A stretch of 42,947 nt of DNA from Oceaniglobus roseus (GTDB taxonomy: Bacteria > Pseudomonadota > Alphaproteobacteria > Rhodobacterales > Rhodobacteraceae): NCBI RefSeq assembly GCF_002869745.1, contig NZ_PNOS01000042.1:1-42947 (forward strand), written 5' to 3'. Below are positions 33,704 to 41,910 of the stretch, in pieces. Position 1 is the first letter of the stretch; the number at the start of each line of letters is the position of its first letter. The notes under the pieces were generated by a model, which was not told the origin of the DNA, did not search any database, and saw only the letters and a list, made by a program, of their open reading frames with translations. The position numbers were made by a program, and so were the translations under genes.

Positions 33704-34522
33704 ATGCGCCGCCAACGCTCCACCCTCTGGCAGCTCGTGCTTCTGGCCGGGGTGATCCTGCTCTGCGTCTTCCCGTTCTACTGGATGGTCACGACCTCGC
33801 TGAAGACGCAGATCGTGGCGCTCGAGGCGCCGCCGGTCTGGATCTTCGAGCCGACGCTCGATAACTACCGCGAGGCGCTGTTCGAGGACGGGGTGCTGCG
33901 GACGCTGGTCAACTCGCTGATCATCGCCGTCTGCACGACGCTGCTGGCGCTGCTGCTGGGGGTGCCTGCCGCCTTCGCGCTCGCCCGGTTCGAGTTCCGC
34001 GGCAAGAAGGACCTGTGGTTCTGGTTCATCACCAACCGCATGGTGTCGCCCATCGTGCTGGCGCTGCCGTTCTTCCTGATCGCGCGCAACCTCGACCTGC
34101 TCGACAAGCACATCACGCTGATCCTGATCTACCTGACCTTCAACCTGCCGATCGTCATCTGGATCGTCACCGACCAGTTCCGCGGCATCCCCTACGACCT
34201 CGACGAGGCGGCGCGGCTGGAAGGCGCCTCGCAGTTCACCATCATGCGCAAGATCTGCCTGCCGCTGGCGATGCCCGGCGTGGCGGTGTCGGCGATCTTC
34301 TCCTTCATCTTCTCGTGGAACGAGCTGATGTTCGGCCTGATCCTGACCCGCTCGGACGCCAAGACCGCGCCGGCCATGGCGGTGTCGTTCATGGAGGGCT
34401 ACGACCTGCCCTATGGCAAGATCATGGCGACCTCGACGCTGATCGTGATCCCGGTGCTGATCTTCGCGCTGATCGCCTCGAAACAGCTGGTGCGCGGGCT
34501 GACCATGGGGGCGGTGAAGTGA
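33704..34522 (+). CDS. ABC transporter permease 2 (MalG/UgpE class)
   Basis: 272 residues, six membrane segments. The N-terminus LCVFPFYWMVTTSLKTQ is typical. The EAA loop is DEAARLEGASQFTIMRKICLP. The end, FALIASKQLVRGLTMGAVK, is the family C-terminus (usual form G-x-x-x-GAVKG) but stops one residue short of the usual Gly. It begins 3 bases after permease 1. Downstream is a 297-base gap containing the structured repeat. Confidence 0.93.
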   Translation: MRRQRSTLWQLVLLAGVILLCVFPFYWMVTTSLKTQIVALEAPPVWIFEPTLDNYREALFEDGVLRTLVNSLIIAVCTTLLALLLGVPAAFALARFEFRGKKDLWFWFITNRMVSPIVLALPFFLIARNLDLLDKHITLILIYLTFNLPIVIWIVTDQFRGIPYDLDEAARLEGASQFTIMRKICLPLAMPGVAVSAIFSFIFSWNELMFGLILTRSDAKTAPAMAVSFMEGYDLPYGKIMATSTLIVIPVLIFALIASKQLVRGLTMGAVK

Positions 34523-34596
34523 GGGGGGTGGCCTCCAGTGGCGTCGCCTTCGCTCCGGGCATCGCCGCAGTCTCCGAAGTCTCCGCTCTGCGCAAA

Positions 34597-34688
34597 GGGC
34601 AGCCCCCGGCCGCCGGGCGGGGGAAAAGCCCCCGCCCGGGGGGGCGGTCGGGGGCTGCCCGGCGTGCCGCCGGGCGGGACATCTGCGG
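34597..34688 (+). repeat. Structured GC-rich repeat, copy 1
   Basis: In the 34523-34819 gap. An outer 12-bp stem (34597-34608 with 34649-34660) encloses a 9-bp hairpin (34615-34623 with 34629-34637). An alternative hairpin, GCCCGGC (34657-34663) with GCCGGGC (34669-34675), shares bases 34657-34660 with the outer stem, so the two folds exclude each other. Bases 34649-34688 match 40748-40787 at about 33 of 40 positions. In the alternative hairpin, one C-G pair here (34663/34669) is G-C in the other copy, a compensatory change. Confidence 0.75.
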
Positions 34689-34819
34689 CGGTGTGCCAAA
34701 CGGCAAACGGGTAACCCGTTCTGCCCTATCACGCGCCGCCGCCCCCTCCCCGCGGGACATCCCCGCCCTCCCGCATTACATCTCCGCTCCAAGGCCATAG
34801 CCCCAAGGAGACCGGAGCC

Positions 34820-35809
34820 ATGTCGCGCTACATCAAGATCGGCCAGATCGACCCGGACGAGCAGCTTCTCGTCCGCCTCGCCTGGGCCTGCGAGGTCGAG
34901 GGGCTGACCCAGAGCGACGCGGCCGAGCGCTTCGGCATCACCCGCCTGCGCGTCAACAAGGCGCTGAGCGAGGCGAAGCGCCGTGGCATCCTGAGGATCA
35001 GCATCGAGTCGATCTACCGCGCCGCCGCCGATCTCGAATGGCAGCTCGAACGCCGCTTCGGGCTGAAGGGCGTCTGCGTCGTCCCCTCGCCCGAGGACGC
35101 CGAGACGGTGACGACGCTGGTCAGCGCGGGCCTCGGCGCCTATCTTGGCAAGCTGCTGGCCGACACGAGGATCACGACCTTCGGCATGTCCTGGGGCAAC
35201 ACGCTGAACCTCGCCACCCGCTACATGCAGCCGGTGAACCGGCCCGACCTCGAAATCGTGTCGATCATGGGCGGAGTCGCCCGCGGCTCGGACGTCAACG
35301 GCTACGAGATCACGACCCGCCTCGCCGACATCTGCAATGCCGAGCACAGCTTCTTCACCGCGCCGCTCTTCGCGGGCAGCGCCGAGAGCCGCCGGATCAT
35401 CATGGAGCAGGACGTCATCGCCTCGATGATCGCCCGGATTCGCGAATGCGAGGCGGTGGCGCTGGCCACCGGCGACCTGACCAGCTCGCTCCTCGTGAAG
35501 GACGCCCTGCCCCGCGACATCGACCCGGCCGAACTGCGCGCCCGGGGCGGCGTCGGCGACATCATCGGCCATGTCCTGAACGCCGAGGGCGAGCTGATCG
35601 ACCACGAGGTGAACCGGCGGGTCATCGGCATCTCGCTCGACGACCTTGCGCGGATCGACAACGTGATCCTCGCCGCCGGCGGCCTGCACAAGGTCCCCGT
35701 GATCCTCGCCGCGCTCCGCCGCGGCTTCGTCGACACGCTGGTGACGGACGAGAACACGGCGCAGAAACTGCTCGAGACCGCGGACGCGCGGATCGCCGAG
35801 ACCACCTGA
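34820..35809 (+). CDS. SorC/DeoR-type sugar-binding transcriptional regulator
   Basis: 329 residues. N-terminal [23 protein letters not shown], then [20 protein letters not shown]. The C-terminal ~250 residues are the SorC phosphosugar-binding domain ([48 protein letters not shown] near the end). This family includes EryD (erythritol) and sorbitol/pentitol regulators that respond to a phosphorylated intermediate. AAGGAG lies upstream of the ATG. It heads the enzyme genes and most likely controls both this operon and the importer through the 31-bp-spaced repeats. Confidence 0.92.
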
Positions 35810-35821
35810 GGAGAAAGAACC

Positions 35822-36865
35822 ATGGCCGAAGCCCTCGTCCTGGAAGAGAAGAACAAGCTCGCCCTGCGCGACATCGACCTGCCCGACACGCTGGGCGCGG
35901 GCGACGTGCGCATCGCCATCGACACCGTCGGCGTCTGCGGCAGCGACGTGCACTACTATACCCACGGCAAGATCGGCCCCTTCGTGGTGAAGGAACCGAT
36001 GGTGCTGGGCCACGAGGCGGCGGGAACCGTCACCGAGGTCGGGCCCGAGGTCACGCACCTGAAGGTCGGCGACCGGGTGTGCATGGAGCCGGGCATCCCC
36101 GACATGCGCTCGAAGGCCAGCAAGCTCGGCGTCTACAACGTGGACCCCGCGGTGCGGTTCTGGGCCACGCCCCCGGTCCACGGCTGCCTCACGCCCTCGG
36201 TCGTCCATCCCGCCGCCTTCACCTACCGCCTGCCCGACAACGTCAGCTTTGCCGAAGGCGCCATGGCCGAACCCTTCGCCATCGGCATGCAGGCGGCGCT
36301 GCGCGCGAAGATCAAGCCGGGGGACATCGCCCTTGTCACCGGCTGCGGGCCCATCGGGATCATGGTGGCGCTGGCGGCGCTCGCCGGGGGCTGCGCGAAG
36401 GTCTTCATCGCCGACCTCGTGGACGAGAAGCTGGGCGTCGCCGCGCAGTACGACGGGATCGAACCGGTCAACGTCACGCGGGAGAACCCGGCCGAGGTGG
36501 TGCGCGAGGCCACGGGTGGCTGGGGCGCCGACGTGGTGTTCGAATGCGCGGGCGCGGCCAAGTCGGTGCAGACGGCGCTGGAGGCGGTGGCGCCCGCCGG
36601 CTGCGTCGTCTGGGTGGGCATGCCAGTGGATCCGGTGCCCTTCGACCTGGTGCTGGCGCAGTCCAAGGAGATCCGGATGGAGACGGTGTTCCGCTACGCC
36701 AACATCTACGATCGCGCCATCGCCCTGATTGCCTCGGGCAAGGTGGATCTGAAGCCGCTGGTCTCTCAGACCTTCGCGTTCAAGGACAGCATCGCCGCCT
36801 TCGACCGGGCAGTCGAGGCCCGGCCCACAGACGTGAAGATCCAGATCCGGCTCGGACAGGACTGA
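35822..36865 (+). CDS. Zinc-dependent polyol dehydrogenase (xylitol/sorbitol type, MDR)
   Basis: 347 residues, oxidises a polyol to a ketose with NAD. Catalytic zinc ligands can be placed at Cys in [10 protein letters not shown], His-Glu in GHEAAG, and Glu in MEPGIP. The Rossmann motif is [10 protein letters not shown]. The segment [24 protein letters not shown] is diagnostic of xylitol/sorbitol dehydrogenases and replaces the structural-zinc cysteine loop. Starts 12 bases after the SorC gene with AGGAG upstream. Substrate is likely xylitol, D-arabitol or sorbitol; with a ribitol dehydrogenase and pentulose kinase in the same operon, a pentitol is favoured. The stop overlaps the SIS gene start (TGATG). 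Confidence 0.92.
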
Positions 36866-37425
36866 TGACCCTTCCGGACGATATCGCGACCCGCGTGCTG
36901 GACGAGCTTCGACCCGGCCTTGCGCCGGAGGTGCTGGCGCAGATTCCCGCCCTATCCGAAACGCTGGCGGGGGCGGGCCCCATCGTCTGTTACGGCGTCG
37001 GGCGCGAAGGGCTGATGATGCGCGCGCTGGCCATGCGGCTGTTCCATCTCGGCCTCGACGCGCATGTGGTCGGCGACATGACGGCCCCCGCCCTCGGGCG
37101 GGGCGGCGTGCTGCTGGTCAGCGCGGGGCCCGGGCAGTTTTCCACCGTCGCGGCGCTGGCGGGGGTGGCGAAGGAGGCCGGCGCGAAGGTCGTCTGCTTC
37201 ACCGCCACGCCCTCGGGCGCGGTACCGCGGGGCGCGGACATGGCGGTGCACCTCCCCGCGCAGACCATGGCCAACGACCGGGGCGCGGCGCCGTCGGTCC
37301 TGCCCATGGGCTCGCTCTACGAGGCGCTGATGTTTCTGTTCTTCGAGCTTGTCATCCTCGAACTGCGCGACCGCATCGGCGTCACGCCCGAGGCCATGCG
37401 CGCCCGCCACACGAACCTGGAGTGA
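36865..37425 (+). CDS. SIS-domain protein (sugar isomerase-like)
   Basis: 186 residues, a single SIS domain. [20 protein letters not shown] is the phosphosugar-binding start, followed by [21 protein letters not shown] and [20 protein letters not shown]. The nearest known type is 6-phospho-3-hexuloisomerase (HxlB-like), but no partner hexulose-phosphate synthase is here. The start codon overlaps the dehydrogenase stop by one base, so it is made with the pentitol enzymes. It may isomerise a ketopentose or hexulose phosphate, or bind one as a sensor. The catalytic Glu/His of well-studied SIS isomerases cannot be assigned by eye. Confidence 0.85.
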
Positions 37426-37429
37426 CCCG

Positions 37430-38197
37430 ATGCGCCGCTGGCAGGACCGCTTCTCTCTGACAGGCCGCCGGGCGCTGATCACCGGCGCCTCTTCCGGCAT
37501 CGGTTGGGCGATCGCCGAGGTCTTCGCCGATGCAGGCGCCGACATCGTCGCGCACGGGCGGGACAGCGACCGGCTGGCAACCCTGGCCGAAACCGTCCGC
37601 GCGACGGGCCGCCGCTTCGACGCCGTGACAGGCGACCTCGCCTCGGCGGAGGAAACGGTGCGGGTCGCGGAGGATGCGCTGGCGGGCGGCGCAATCGACA
37701 TCCTCGTGAACTCGGCGGGCATCGCCCTCACCGGCCCCGCGACGGAATACAGCCTGGAGGACTGGAACCGCACGCTGGCCGTGAACCTCACCGCGCCGTT
37801 CCTCCTTTCGAAGGCCCTGCTGCCCGCGATGATGGCGCGTCGGCGCGGCAAGATCGTCAACATCTCGTCCCAGACCGGGGTGATCGCGCTGGCCGACCAT
37901 GCGGCCTATGCCACGTCGAAGGGCGGGCTCAACGCGCTGACCAAGTCGCTGATGACCGAGGCCGCGCCACACAATGTGCAGGTGAACGCGATCTGCCCGA
38001 CCGTGGTGCTGACCGAGATGGGCAAACAGCTCTGGTCGGCGCCCGAGAAGAAGGATCCGTTCATCGCGCGCACCCCGCTCGGCCGGTTCGGGGAGCCGGT
38101 CGAGATCGCGGACCTCGCCCTCTATCTCGCCTCGCCAGCATCGGACCTCGTCAACGGCGAGATCGTGATGATCGAAGGCGGCTATTCCAGCATCTAG
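37430..38197 (+). CDS. Short-chain dehydrogenase/reductase, gluconate 5-dehydrogenase-like
   Basis: 255 residues, classical [16 protein letters not shown] for cofactor binding, the NSAGIA motif, catalytic Ser in NISSQTG, and Tyr/Lys in YATSKGG. The C-terminal IEGGYSSI is intact. By its N-terminal pattern ([16 protein letters not shown]) it is closest in appearance to the gluconate 5-/2-deoxygluconate dehydrogenase branch. It starts 4 bases after the SIS gene. It probably oxidises a second polyol or aldose; the substrate is unknown. Confidence 0.88.
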
Positions 38198-38208
38198 GGA
38201 GGATTTCG

Positions 38209-38937
38209 ATGACCGACGGACTGCAGGGAAAGGTCGCCGCCATCACCGGCGCGGCCTCGGGAATCGGGCTGGAGTGCGCGCGCCAGTGCCTTGCGGCCGG
38301 GGCGCAGGTGGCGCTGGTGGACCGCAACGCCGAGGCGCTGGAGAAGGCCTGCGCCGACCTGGGCGACGGCGCCTTCGCCGTAGAGACCGACCTGATGGAC
38401 CGCGACAGCGTCGCCCGGATGCTGCCGCAGATCCTGAAGGAGGCGGGGCAGCTCGACATCTTCCACGCCAACGCAGGCGCCTATGTCGGCGGAGACATCC
38501 TGGAGGGCGATCCGGACCAGTGGGACCGGATGCTGAACCTCAACATCAACGCCGCCTTCCGCTCGATCCACGCGGTGCTGCCGCATATGGCGGAGCGCAA
38601 GACCGGCGACGTGATCCTGACCAGCTCGGTCGCGGGCGTCATCCCCGTGGTGTGGGAGCCGATCTATACCGCCTCGAAACACGCCGTGCAGGCCTTCACC
38701 CACACCGTCCGCCGCCAGATGGCGCGCCACGGGGTGCGGGTCGGGGCGATCTTGCCGGGCCCCGTGGTGACGGCGCTGCTCGACGACTGGCCGAAGGCGA
38801 AGCTCGACCAGGCGCTGGAGGAAGGCAGCCTGATGCAGCCGAAGGAGGTGGCCGACTGCGTGGTGTTCATGCTGACGCGGCCGCGCAACGTGACGATCCG
38901 CGACCTCGTCCTGCTGCCGAACGCGGTGGACCTGTGA
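38209..38937 (+). CDS. rbtD: Ribitol 2-dehydrogenase
   Basis: 242 residues. NAD-dependent oxidation of ribitol to D-ribulose. SDR features: [13 protein letters not shown], the unusual HANAGAY in place of NNAG, catalytic [11 protein letters not shown], and [20 protein letters not shown] near the C-terminus. From memory, blocks such as [18 protein letters not shown] and [15 protein letters not shown] are shared with the Klebsiella ribitol dehydrogenase, which is why I use the symbol. GGGAGG lies upstream. The stop overlaps the kinase start (TGATG). Confidence 0.88.
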
Positions 38938-40577
38938 TGGCGGGACCGTATTTCATCGGCGCCGACGTCGGCACCGGCAGCGCCCGGGCGGGGATCTTCG
39001 ACGCCGCAGGCACGCTGCTCGCCAGCCACAAGCACGACATCCGCACCTGGCGCGAGGACGGCGGCATCGCCGAACAGTCCTCGGACGACATCTGGTCCGC
39101 CGTCGCCACCTGCATCCGCGCGGTCGTGGCCGAGGCGCAGGTCGTGCCGGAGCAGGTGGCCGGGGTCGGCTTCGACGCCGCCTGCTCGCTCGTCGTGCTG
39201 GACCGCGACATGCAGCCGCTGACGGTCTCCGCCTCGGGCGAGGCCGAGCGCAACGTCATCGTCTGGATGGACCACCGCGCGACCGAACAGGCGGAACGCA
39301 TCAACGCCACCGGCCACCGGGTGCTCGACTACGTCGGCGGGCGGATCTCGCCCGAGATGCAGACGCCGAAACTCCTGTGGCTGAAGGACCGGATGCCCGA
39401 GACCTTCGCGGCGGCGGGCCAGTTCCTCGACCTGCCCGACTTCCTGACCTGGAAGGCGACGGGATCGCTGGCCCGTTCCGCCTGCACGGTGACCTGCAAG
39501 TGGACCTACCTCGCCCACGAGGAACGGTGGGACGACAGCTATTTCCACGCCGTCGGGCTGGGCGAGCTGGCGGACGAGGGCTTTGCCCGGATCGGGCAGG
39601 AGATCCTGCCGCCCGCCGCCCCTCTCGCCGGTGGGCTGAGCGAAGAAGCCGCCGCCGACCTCGGGCTGTCCCCCGGCACGGCCGTCGGCGCGGGGCTGAT
39701 CGACGCCCACGCGGGCGGCATCGGCACCGTGGGCGCCGACCCCGGGGCGGGGCCGCAGCAGGTCATGGCCTATGTGTTCGGCACCTCCGCCTGCACCATG
39801 GCCTCGTCGGACGAAGCCCATTTCGTGCCCGGCGTCTGGGGCCCCTACTACTCCGCCATGGTGCCGGGGCTCTGGCTCTCCGAGGGCGGGCAGTCGGCGG
39901 CGGGCGAGGCCATCGCGCATCTCATCGCCACCCACCCGGCAGGGGCCGAGGCGGCGGCGCGGGCGAAGGCGGCGGGACAGTCGGTGCAGGCGCTGCTGCT
40001 GGACGAGGCCGAACGGCGCGCAGGCAGCGCCAGCGCCATGGCCGAACTTGCGGGCAACCGCCTTGTGGTGCCCGACTTCCTCGGCAACCGCGCGCCCCAC
40101 GCCGATCCCCACGCGACGGCCACGGTGTCGGGTCTGACGCTGGCCCGCGGCTTCGACGACCTGCTCGCGACCTACGTGGCGGGCGTGCTGGGCGTCGGCT
40201 ACGGGCTGCGCCAGATCCTCGCGGCGCAGCGCGACCGGGGCGTGGCGCCCGGGGCGGTGGTGATCAGCGGCGGCGCGGGAGAAAGCCCGGCGATCCAGCA
40301 GCTCCTGGCGGACGCCGGGGGGCTGCCGGTCCTGTCGACGACCTGCCCCGAGCCGGTGCTGCTCGGCGCCGCGATGCTCGGGGCGGTGGCGGCGGGGCAA
40401 TACGACTCGGTACGCGACTGCATGGGCGCGATGTCCCACATCGGGAAACGGCACGATCCCGCGGGCGGCGCGGTGGCCGAGCGTCACGCGGCGCGGTTCG
40501 CGGCCTACATCGCGATGCAGGAGGCCGAGCGTGCGCTCAGGGCGCGGCTCGCGGAGATCGGCGCCGGGCAACCCTAG
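38937..40577 (+). CDS. FGGY pentulose kinase, D-ribulokinase-like
   Basis: 546 residues. ATP-dependent phosphorylation of a ketopentose, most likely D-ribulose to D-ribulose 5-phosphate, which enters the pentose phosphate pathway. FGGY_N: IGADVGTGSARAGIFDAAG (phosphate loop), VGFDAACSLVVLD, VIVWMDHRATEQA. FGGY_C: VFGTSACTM, LVVPDFLGNRAPHADP, VVISGGAGESPAIQQLLAD. Features fit the eukaryote-like FGGY/ribulokinase branch rather than AraB or xylulokinase. Last gene of the operon, coupled to rbtD. It converges on trpD across a repeat-rich 316-base gap. Confidence 0.9.
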   Translation: MAGPYFIGADVGTGSARAGIFDAAGTLLASHKHDIRTWREDGGIAEQSSDDIWSAVATCIRAVVAEAQVVPEQVAGVGFDAACSLVVLDRDMQPLTVSASGEAERNVIVWMDHRATEQAERINATGHRVLDYVGGRISPEMQTPKLLWLKDRMPETFAAAGQFLDLPDFLTWKATGSLARSACTVTCKWTYLAHEERWDDSYFHAVGLGELADEGFARIGQEILPPAAPLAGGLSEEAAADLGLSPGTAVGAGLIDAHAGGIGTVGADPGAGPQQVMAYVFGTSACTMASSDEAHFVPGVWGPYYSAMVPGLWLSEGGQSAAGEAIAHLIATHPAGAEAAARAKAAGQSVQALLLDEAERRAGSASAMAELAGNRLVVPDFLGNRAPHADPHATATVSGLTLARGFDDLLATYVAGVLGVGYGLRQILAAQRDRGVAPGAVVISGGAGESPAIQQLLADAGGLPVLSTTCPEPVLLGAAMLGAVAAGQYDSVRDCMGAMSHIGKRHDPAGGAVAERHAARFAAYIAMQEAERALRARLAEIGAGQP

Positions 40578-40641
40578 ACTCCGATACCGACCGGCTTTCC
40601 ACGCCGCGCGGCTACCGGCGCCACCCGGTCTTCATCGGGGT
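40578..40641 (+). repeat. Inverted repeat after the pentulose kinase gene
   Basis: 17-base arms (40578-40594 and 40625-40641) pair at 13 positions, with outer CCGAT/ATCGG and inner GACCGG/CCGGTC blocks, 30-base loop. It starts right after the kinase stop and could protect the 3' end or terminate transcription. It is the first of several structures filling the 40578-40893 gap. Confidence 0.5.
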
Positions 40642-40729
40642 TACGGGACCCGGAGCAGAACCGGCCATCGTCCCGCGAAGGCCGACAGGCACACTGCCGG
40701 CCATTCCCGGCCACCGCTCCGCACGAAGA

Positions 40730-40787
40730 GCAGCCTCCGACCGCGGGCGGGGGCTGCCCGGGATTCCCCCGGGCGGGAGATCTCCGC
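40730..40787 (+). repeat. Structured GC-rich repeat, copy 2
   Basis: Homologous to 34649-34688. A first stem pairs 40730-40739 with 40748-40757 (one mismatch); copy 2 lacks the inner hairpin of copy 1. The second hairpin, GCCCGGG with CCCGGGC, carries the compensatory base pair and shares bases with the first stem. It lies 153 bases past the kinase stop. Confidence 0.7.
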
Positions 40788-40794
40788 AAAGCGC

Positions 40795-40878
40795 GCGGAG
40801 TTCCCCGAACTCCGCTCCCCCGGCGCCGCTCGGCACTCCCCCTTCCGCGGGTGTGCCCCGGAGTTCCCCGAACTCCGG
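40795..40878. repeat. Two identical palindromes 63 bp apart
   Basis: CGGAGTTC-CCC-GAACTCCG occurs at 40796-40814 and 40859-40877. Each extends by one further complementary pair, but the added pair differs (G-C versus C-G), so symmetry is maintained beyond the identical core. They lie between the converging kinase and trpD genes, 16 bases from the trpD stop. Candidate bidirectional terminators or protein-binding dyads; no T-run. Confidence 0.75.
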
Positions 40879-40893
40879 CCGCGCGCCGCCGCC

Positions 40894-41910
40894 CTAAGCC
40901 GCGCTCGTCACCTTCGCCAGCGCCTCGACCTTCCCCTTCGCCGCGCCCGAATCGATGCTCGTCCGCGCCATCTCGACCCCCTCGGGAAGAGAAGACGCGC
41001 GCCCCGCCACCACAAGCGCCGCGGCAGCGTTGAACAGCACCGCGTCGCGATAGGCCGAGTCCGCACCGTCCAGCAGCGCCCGGAACGCCTTCCCGTTCTC
41101 CTCGGGGGTGCCGCCCAGGATCGCCTCGAAGGGGTGCATCGGAAGCCCGGCGTCCTCCGGCGCGATCTCGGTCTCGCTGACGACGCCGCCCTCCAGCTTC
41201 GCCACCCGCGTCGGCGCGGCGATGGAGATCTCGTCGGTCCCGTCGCCGCCATGCACCAGCCAGGCCACCTCGGACCCGAGCGCGGCCAGCGTCTCGGCCA
41301 TGGGCCGGATCACCTCGGCGGAGAACGCGCCCGTCAGCTGCCGCTTCACCCCGGCCGGATTGGTGAGCGGGCCGAGGATGTTGAAGATCGTCCGCGTCCC
41401 GAGCTCGCTGCGCGCGGGCATCACGTGGGCCGTCGCCGGATGGTGCATCGGCGCCATCATGAAGCCGATCCCCGCCTCGGCCAGCGCCCGCTCCACCACC
41501 TCCGGGCCGACCATCACCTGGATGCCCATCTGGGTCAGCGCATCCGCCGCCCCGGATTTCGAGCTGAGGTTGCGGTTGCCGTGCTTGGCCACCACCACCC
41601 CCGCCCCGGCCACCACGAAGGCCGTCGCGGTCGAGATGTTCAGCGTCCCCTTGCCGTCGCCGCCGGTGCCGACGATGTCGATCGCCCCCTCGGGCGCCTT
41701 CACCTTGCGGCACTTCGCGCGCATCACCGCGGCGGCGGCGGCGTATTCGTCCACCGACTCGCCCCGCGTCCGAAGCGTCATCAGGAAGCCGCCGATCTGC
41801 GAGGGCGTCGCCTCGCCCTCGAACAGCAGGCGGAAGGCGGTCTCGGCCTCGGGGCGGGTCAGCGGGCGGGACACGGCGGCGGCGATGAGAGGCTTCAGAT
41901 CCTGGGTCAT
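40894..41910 (-). CDS. trpD: Anthranilate phosphoribosyltransferase
   Basis: Second step of tryptophan synthesis: anthranilate plus PRPP to N-(5-phosphoribosyl)anthranilate. 338 residues. Seen: the PRPP-binding [15 protein letters not shown], the [19 protein letters not shown] segment, and the late [10 protein letters not shown]. Its ATG overlaps the trpG stop (4 bases), so translation is coupled. The usual next gene, trpC, is absent; the convergent pentulose kinase lies there instead. Confidence 0.97.

Follow-up and report, generated by a model that had tools for sequence, protein, structure and literature searches.

The window analysed here, a stretch of 42,947 nucleotides (nt) of the Oceaniglobus roseus genome (Rhodobacteraceae; contig NZ_PNOS01000042.1), carries a pentitol locus with two copies of an intergenic hairpin element. 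Copy 1 is located 73 nt past an ABC permease gene (33704-34522), ahead of a gene for a SorC/DeoR-like regulator, and copy 2 lies between the gene for an FGGY pentulose kinase and the convergent trpD gene. A first-pass annotation had reported these as a matching intergenic pair, and an ungapped comparison of 34649-34688 with 40748-40787 confirmed an identity of 33/40, the runner-up match to copy 1 on either strand of the window reaching 25/40. The compensated base pair was likewise found as described, C34663/G34669 of copy 1 being swapped to G40762/C40768 in copy 2 with pairing kept. Also correct was the overlap of the small hairpin with a longer upstream stem, three bases (CCC; 34658-34660 and 40757-40759) being claimed by both in each copy. 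Both copies proved to be members of a structured repeat family that is dispersed through the Rhodobacteraceae.

Two hairpin copies at the pentitol locus

In the core of the element, two small palindromes stand as an inverted doublet (A1-B1, loop, A2-B2), and a third hairpin, H2, comes after them. In a typical full copy, the 5′ part consists of AGGGCAGC-S-CCCGACCG, GGGYGGG-S-G, NGAAG, C-S-CCCGCCC and a G-rich spacer, and the 3′ part of CGGTCGGG-S-GCTGCCC, GGCG-loop-CGCC and GGGC, followed by GGGACATC or variable sequence. The 5′ flank is GCACAA-like or variable, and AGGGC comes after it. Near direct repeats are formed by A1 with A2 and by parts of B1 with parts of B2. The four strands have two pairing options: a long hairpin (H1), in which A1:B2 encloses B1:A2 as an outer stem of approximately 16-17 bp around a 9-bp inner hairpin, or the side-by-side hairpins A1:B1 and A2:B2 (clover). 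H2 starts with the last three or four bases of the H1 foot, and this shared foot is able to pair upstream or downstream.

The core exceeds the 40 nt initially noted, measuring 90 nt in copy 1 and 58 nt in copy 2 (Table 1). RNA folding gave z = -5.2 for copy 1 (0/200 shuffles equally stable) and z = -3.0 for copy 2 (2/200). In the minimum-energy fold of copy 1, the shared bases go to H1 and H2 takes a longer, different form. Compared with covariance model (CM) R1, which was built from 22 copies including copy 1, copy 2 is missing 31 model positions of the upstream hairpin. This segment was probably lost by deletion between the internal G-runs of B1 and B2.

Table 1. Positions of the element and its parts in the window, and loci with the element at the cysS-cimA junction
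Feature	Position	Strand	Basis	Remark
Copy 1, full-length core of the repeat (90 nt)	34596..34685	+	CM R1, 83.1 bits	
Copy 1, long hairpin H1	34597..34660	+	fold and covariation	
Copy 1, H1 outer arms	34597-34613 / 34644-34660	+	fold and covariation	
Copy 1, H1 inner arms	34615-34623 / 34629-34637	+	fold and covariation	
Copy 1, small hairpin H2	34658..34674	+		first three bases (34658-34660) common to H1 foot
Copy 2, shortened core	40727..40784	+	CM R1, 41.4 bits; fold	H1 without inner hairpin, then H2
Copy 2, hairpin H2	40757..40773	+		compensated G40762-C40768 pair
Hairpin H3 (GGAGTTCCCCGAACTCC)	40797..40813	.		accessory palindrome behind a minority of own copies
Second H3 copy	40860..40876	.		
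cysS-cimA junction, element in sense	L080, L093, L094, L119, L151, L158, L197, L204, L208			
cysS-cimA junction, element in antisense	L071, L092, L091, L148, L180, L223			

Dispersal across genomes and position at gene ends

Searched with the DNA of copy 1, the own genome gave 33 matches, which are spread over 19 contigs and include the two window copies; when relatives were searched, 13/41 genomes matched, the own genome included, all belonging to the same family. Using R1, 22 matches were obtained in the own genome at E <= 0.001, one of which (contig C72) was new. Copy 2 was absent from these and was found at E 7.5e-5 when the window alone was searched. With filters off, R1 returned from the window, besides both copies, the reverse strand of copy 1 (E 0.0058), followed by the next place at E 0.31. 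In the family, 72/149 genomes were positive for R1 (own genome counted) with 1 to 21 matches each, bearing out the earlier suggestion of a dispersed structured repeat family. In a class-wide draw with stricter filters, 2/190 genomes were positive, both from the family; among the 188 genomes without match, the 20 listed comprise one of the family and 19 of other families.

A pattern scan of named genomes gave 35 stretches, from taxa that include Roseobacter, Ruegeria, Leisingera, Shimia, Roseovarius, Tropicimonas, Oceaniglobus, Seohaeicola and unclassified Rhodobacterales; an earlier run with a longer pattern on named genomes gave no match. The elements of two genomes of the same genus (G003 and G004) are identical to those in Oceaniglobus records. 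On plasmids, the element was found in 64 records (Phaeobacter 35, Leisingera 26, Tritonibacter 2, Ruegeria 1), and no match was obtained in 50,697 phage records. Rfam gave no match in the window at gathering score and, at E 0.1, only a tRNA in five element-bearing loci. No title describing such a repeat in Rhodobacterales was found in a literature search that covers subscription journals poorly. The pattern scan also gave one record titled Oceanobacillus sp. HTM 045 (WNWL01000002.1, L126), which holds the same element as family genome G009, with equal score and length; this record is probably mislabelled or a mixed assembly.

Positions relative to genes were derived from gene calls by a codon-usage script instead of annotation, and some genes were missed in relatives (some distances exceed 500 nt). 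All 33 own copies are intergenic by these calls, and 32 of them lie at the 3′ end of a gene, with both orientations of the element represented (17 convergent, 9 tandem sense, 6 tandem antisense and 1 divergent). For the family-wide analysis, 181 model matches were reduced to 170 distinct copies by leaving out three weak opposite-strand matches, one truncated match, four records duplicating counted loci, and identical sequences. Among these, 53 are '--' (both neighbours transcribed from the opposite strand), 41 '++', 34 convergent, 7 divergent and 4 inside a called gene, a neighbour being missing for 31. In tandem copies, the stop codon is closer than the following start in 71/94 cases, and median distances to stop codons in relatives are 30 and 21.5 nt. 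Convergent and divergent gaps number 34 and 7 for the copies versus 17 and 43 in the background (Fisher P 6.5e-8), which consisted of gaps of 100-1000 nt in an 800-kb sample of three relatives, for which the gene score was somewhat stricter. A second and smaller background, drawn from the loci themselves, holds 7 convergent, 28 divergent and 60 tandem gaps.

Some positions are shared between genomes. An element after sucD occupies the same position in seven genomes, as judged by left-flank similarity (L108 has sucD named, and L121 has sucA next to the element). At the cysS-cimA junction, the element is present in 15 genomes, nine times in sense and six times in antisense and as different subtypes (Table 1); both genes are named in L071, three more junctions were assigned by eye and the rest by flank similarity. 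The two orientations may reflect recurrent gain or flipping. The closest relative of a copy resides in its own genome for 42/115 copies versus 5.8 by label shuffling. A four-arm variant constitutes 6/10 pooled copies of G110 and occurs once each in G162 and G097 (two in all), and at least G110 has its own amplified subfamily.

Within a species, five 175-kb plasmids of Leisingera aquaemixtae, carrying 3 to 5 copies each, were compared at five sites. At site a, 25 bp between internal repeats are missing in 2/5 plasmids, a type of loss that would also suit copy 2 of the window. At site b, L300 and L304 carry a different copy from that in L306, L302 and L303, in opposite orientation and with an unlike spacer, after the same gene. 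The element at site c is replaced in two strains by another sequence with its own hairpins (z = -2.1; 5/200 shuffles as stable), all five plasmids agree at site d, and at site e a short-form element in one strain stands where four have a bare H2-like palindrome. These sites look like intergenic cassettes that are swapped and trimmed. An autonomous form, with an open reading frame enclosed by two copies, was rejected: for the three own pairs 2-3.4 kb apart, no transposase was recognised when reading the translations, no family search having been made.

Related loci were also inspected for the arrangement seen in the window. In G002, the gap at the transporter-regulator junction measures 96 nt and the element is missing from it; no copy was found in the trpD regions fetched from G001-G004 (best E of the model search 0.79). 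Moreover, other own copies cluster too, three of them within 3.4 kb on contig C2. Since related loci lack the element, the bracketing of the pentitol block is best seen as chance placement of a repeat favouring gene ends. The idea that the pair marks module boundaries is not supported in view of the 33 copies on 19 contigs, the empty related loci and the other clusters. At the trpD end of G001 (L139:3098-3169), another long inverted repeat, CCGGAGCCTCCGGCGGGAGTATTT ... AAATACTCCCGCCGGAGGCTCCG, was seen by eye between convergent genes; it is a different gene-end palindrome at the place of copy 2.

Covariation and apparent strand preference of the fold

Substitutions that break pairing had been sought as evidence against a structured element. 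In the 22 copies, pairing was instead kept in 96.4% of cells of structure S1, and two-sided changes were present in 8/29 pairs (24 cells); shuffling gave 5.4 such cells, and slid controls no more than 6. For a ranking by mutual information, 152 of the 170 copies were used, with lengths of 85-98 and an effective number of 125. The top ranks are H1 and H2 pairs. In addition, two four-arm links (9-57, 34-57, 26-57, 9-34, 9-26 and 26-34; and 12-54-23-37) and a three-strand link between foot, shared strand and H2 (4-62-78) were found, which exceed what a single fold gives.

The shared base at column 62 is not C in 19 copies, where it forms a Watson-Crick pair with foot column 4 in 13/19 and with H2 column 78 in 16/19; as neighbour controls, columns 2, 3, 5, 76, 77, 79 and 80 give 0-4 and column 6 gives 10. 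All three bases have changed together (AUA, CGC, UAU) in 12 copies, which belong to nine genomes. U38 is accompanied by A48 in 31/33 copies, so that at column 38 the 3′ inner arm tracks the outer 3′ arm, not its long-hairpin partner. Since this 38-48 register differs from 34-57 and 37-54, the alternative fold is not one simple stem. Most substitutions preserve long-hairpin, clover and foot pairings. The multi-strand covariation thus indicates that mutually exclusive folds are real and recur throughout the family in two kinds, namely long hairpin versus clover in H1, and foot versus H2. The competition between folds first proposed for the two window copies is therefore a family-wide property, in which a change of the shared base tends to bring both partner changes.

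The pairing also appears to have a preferred strand. In the 170 copies, G.U/U.G wobbles outnumber A.C/C.A by 299 to 34 on one strand. The '--' copies (n = 53), for which the mRNA would hold the A.C version, show 87 G.U versus 11 A.C, and with common-wobble columns removed the ratios are 19:7 ('++'), 25:11 ('--') and 33:6 ('+-'), counts from related copies and so not independent events. Even with that reservation, the fold of one strand seems to matter irrespective of how the neighbouring genes are oriented. Selection on sense mRNA was rejected as the source of the G.U excess, since the same excess is seen in copies antisense to the neighbouring mRNA. Single-stranded DNA of the lagging strand was rejected as well: a hand tally of 36 copies gave 21 lagging and 15 leading, with no consistent bias. 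This tally covers 5 of 12 genomes (lagging/leading: G070 8/2, G014 6/2, G008 1/4, G066 4/5, G096 2/2), the replication arms of G066 and G096 being assumed from dnaA and G066 contributing weak matches only.

Variation of the core was noted at several places. Some own copies have a longer extra arm in H1, some have the third palindrome H3 after the tail, and three seem, by eye, to be reduced to H2 and tail; short forms of the kind seen in copy 2 (<=72 nt) account for 6/170 pooled copies. Approximately 60 nt of otherwise unlike sequence is present in the H1 inner loop at three loci from three genomes (L096:6723-6874, L106:1401-1556, L221:1206-1361), ending alike (GACGTTGCAAAAGCGCCC), and may be a nested insert or a variable loop. 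Matches of similar length (145-150 nt) were listed in G066, G094, G008, G097 and G119. At an orthologous site, L117:4473-4590 (a Shimia record) and L084:1501-1590 (G052) have the element with and without an extra arm of approximately 30 nt. This arm resembles the long arm of own copies, and three strands have by eye changed together (AAA/TTT/AAA versus GTG/CAC/GTG). An H3-like palindrome (GGAGTTYCCCRAACTCC-like) occurs twice after copy 2 and beside several own copies, with nine occurrences in 27 own sources scanned (L010, L018, L020, L023, L027, L030 and the window); H3 may be a separate small repeat.

Relation to known repeats and choice between explanations

Doublets of repetitive extragenic palindromes (REPs) forming hairpins (REPINs) have been described in Pseudomonas fluorescens as dispersed, extragenic elements in which two inverted small palindromes form a long hairpin, can adopt a 'clover' of lower stability instead, and show compensatory changes in the stem (PMC3116915). 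The present element shares with that description the inverted palindrome doublet (A1/B1/A2/B2 linkage in the 152 of 170 copies analysed), the long-hairpin and clover folds, the compensatory stem changes, and an extragenic, dispersed occurrence in many copies (33 in the own genome, 1-21 per carrier genome). It differs by the extra overlapping hairpin H2, by a highest count in any genome of 33, and by the lack of a Y1 transposase in the own genome and near copies where looked for. The Y1 transposase family (PF01797) had no match in the own genome and was present in 15/149 family genomes, 9/72 carriers versus 6/77 others (both draws of 149 taken as the same set). The surroundings of Y1 matches in nine carriers (14 stretches, 148,436 bases; for G075 only two of its contigs with matches are covered) contained no element. 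A REP driven by a REP-associated tyrosine transposase (RAYT) was rejected, there being no gene here, no association with carriage and no linkage.

GTAG- and CGTC-tagged REPs are also short dispersed palindromes; the CGTC families, with 8-9 bp stems and a CGTC tag, are common in Alphaproteobacteria, and the main text of PMC3733652 names none of Rhodobacter, Roseobacter, Ruegeria, Paracoccus or Rhodobacterales. The element resembles these in being a short dispersed palindrome and is unlike the CGTC REPs of that text in its stem of approximately 16-17 bp plus inner hairpin and in its GCACAA-like or variable flank with AGGGC. Neither tag was seen at the palindrome foot on inspection of 25 nt each side of 91 copies. 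As a cognate RAYT, its flanking copies and the tag are all absent, the element is filed as REPIN-like and not as a REPIN. The Rhizobium-specific intergenic mosaic element (RIME) of Rhizobiales is another alphaproteobacterial intergenic element with large palindromes and mosaic variants; compared by general description, the present repeat is similar in its intergenic palindromes and belongs to another order. The enterobacterial bacterial interspersed mosaic elements (BIMEs) and REPs lie 3′ of genes in either orientation, are scarce in divergent gaps and clustered, and have been proposed to protect mRNA 3′ ends. At the same level of description, they match the element in 3′ position, orientation, few divergent gaps and clusters.

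The best explanation, to which we assign a probability of roughly two in three, is a RAYT-less, REPIN-like dispersed palindromic repeat of Rhodobacteraceae, a hairpin at gene 3′ ends by position and not a regulator of the pentitol operon. Such a repeat would be spreading, or would have spread in the past, in the form of one preferred, folded single strand and by means of some enzyme. It would be kept at gene ends where a strong hairpin is tolerated, or is useful as a two-way 3′-end structure that protects or delimits mRNA; its role there may be 3′ protection, two-way transcript delimiting, or nothing.

Several observations weigh against this explanation. Besides the missing Y1 transposase, there is no T-run behind H2 or behind H1 read in reverse, so that the element is not an ordinary intrinsic terminator. 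The positions shared across genera (sucD, cysS-cimA) show long residence, not active movement, and when the own genome is excluded the nearest relative lies in the same genome for only 18/88 copies. Among the five L. aquaemixtae plasmids, neither a clean target-site duplication nor an exact empty site was found; sites b and c differ in their entire intergenic cassette, as allelic recombination could bring about. If G.U is allowed, column 62 pairs with both true partners in 17/19 copies, but six of the eight neighbours then reach 12-15. The inner hairpin is not always kept (U.U at 22-38 in 21/152 copies), and a typical copy is as stable when folded from one strand as from the other (-72.6 and -73.9 kcal/mol).

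The alternative that sets out from the locus, a switch or attenuator pair whose folds are alternative RNA states regulating the importer or enzyme genes, is highly improbable, even though the competing folds are real. These folds are family-wide, and the 33 copies stand on 19 contigs in both orientations. The related G002 locus and the fetched trpD regions of G001-G004 lack the element, and copies follow genes instead of occupying leaders, even if copy 1 does precede the regulator gene as well. With no T-run and no Rfam match either, the proposed RNA pair controlling this locus finds no backing, and a locus-specific switch was rejected on the number of copies and on the relatives that lack the element. 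A family of transcription terminators working in both directions, favoured by selection at the 3′ ends of genes and dispersed by ordinary recombination and duplication, would account for the 3′-end position, the excess of convergent gaps, the short median distances to stop codons given above for relatives, and retention at cysS-cimA in either orientation; the G001 trpD end, without the repeat, has another long inverted repeat instead, seen by eye. We nevertheless consider this unlikely. T does not exceed 44% at any of 25 positions after H2 in relatives, own copies continue with GACATCT and single Ts (flanks inspected in the 91 copies), and no terminator-like site was found in 34400-41000; an intrinsic terminator was rejected for want of a T-run on either strand. 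Moreover, G.U prevails over A.C on the same strand even where the mRNA is the other strand (87:11), a genome-specific subfamily exists, and in L121 the element stands between sucD and sucA, tandem genes that it would cut apart.

Without any selection on folding, template switching in replication could copy one palindrome arm onto the others. Three- and four-strand co-variation is expected from such homogenisation, and deletion between internal repeats was observed within a species; yet it predicts no strand preference, whereas G.U and A.C stand at 299 to 34 and rare-wobble columns, in related copies, still at 19:7, 25:11 and 33:6 ('++', '--', '+-'). Wobbles also persist instead of being copied away (14-52 in 44/152 and 22-38 in 78/152), which makes this explanation quite improbable. 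A further reading, put forward only tentatively, is a RAYT-independent class in which one strand, however it is oriented to the genes, would be selected to refold (long hairpin or clover, with H2 competing for the foot). This would point to a Rhodobacteraceae enzyme recognising or moving a folded single strand of DNA or RNA and recurrently targeting the same gene ends in either orientation, such as cysS-cimA and a Leisingera plasmid site; we regard it as possible, with the odds clearly against it.

With this REPIN-like repeat, marine Rhodobacteraceae gain a strongly covarying, family-wide element in which sets of three and four strands covary. Two questions become testable: whether repeats of the REPIN-like kind can persist in the absence of RAYTs, and what purpose the strand preference of their fold serves. 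For annotation, paired hairpins at operon borders in Rhodobacteraceae may be this repeat and not operon-specific switches.

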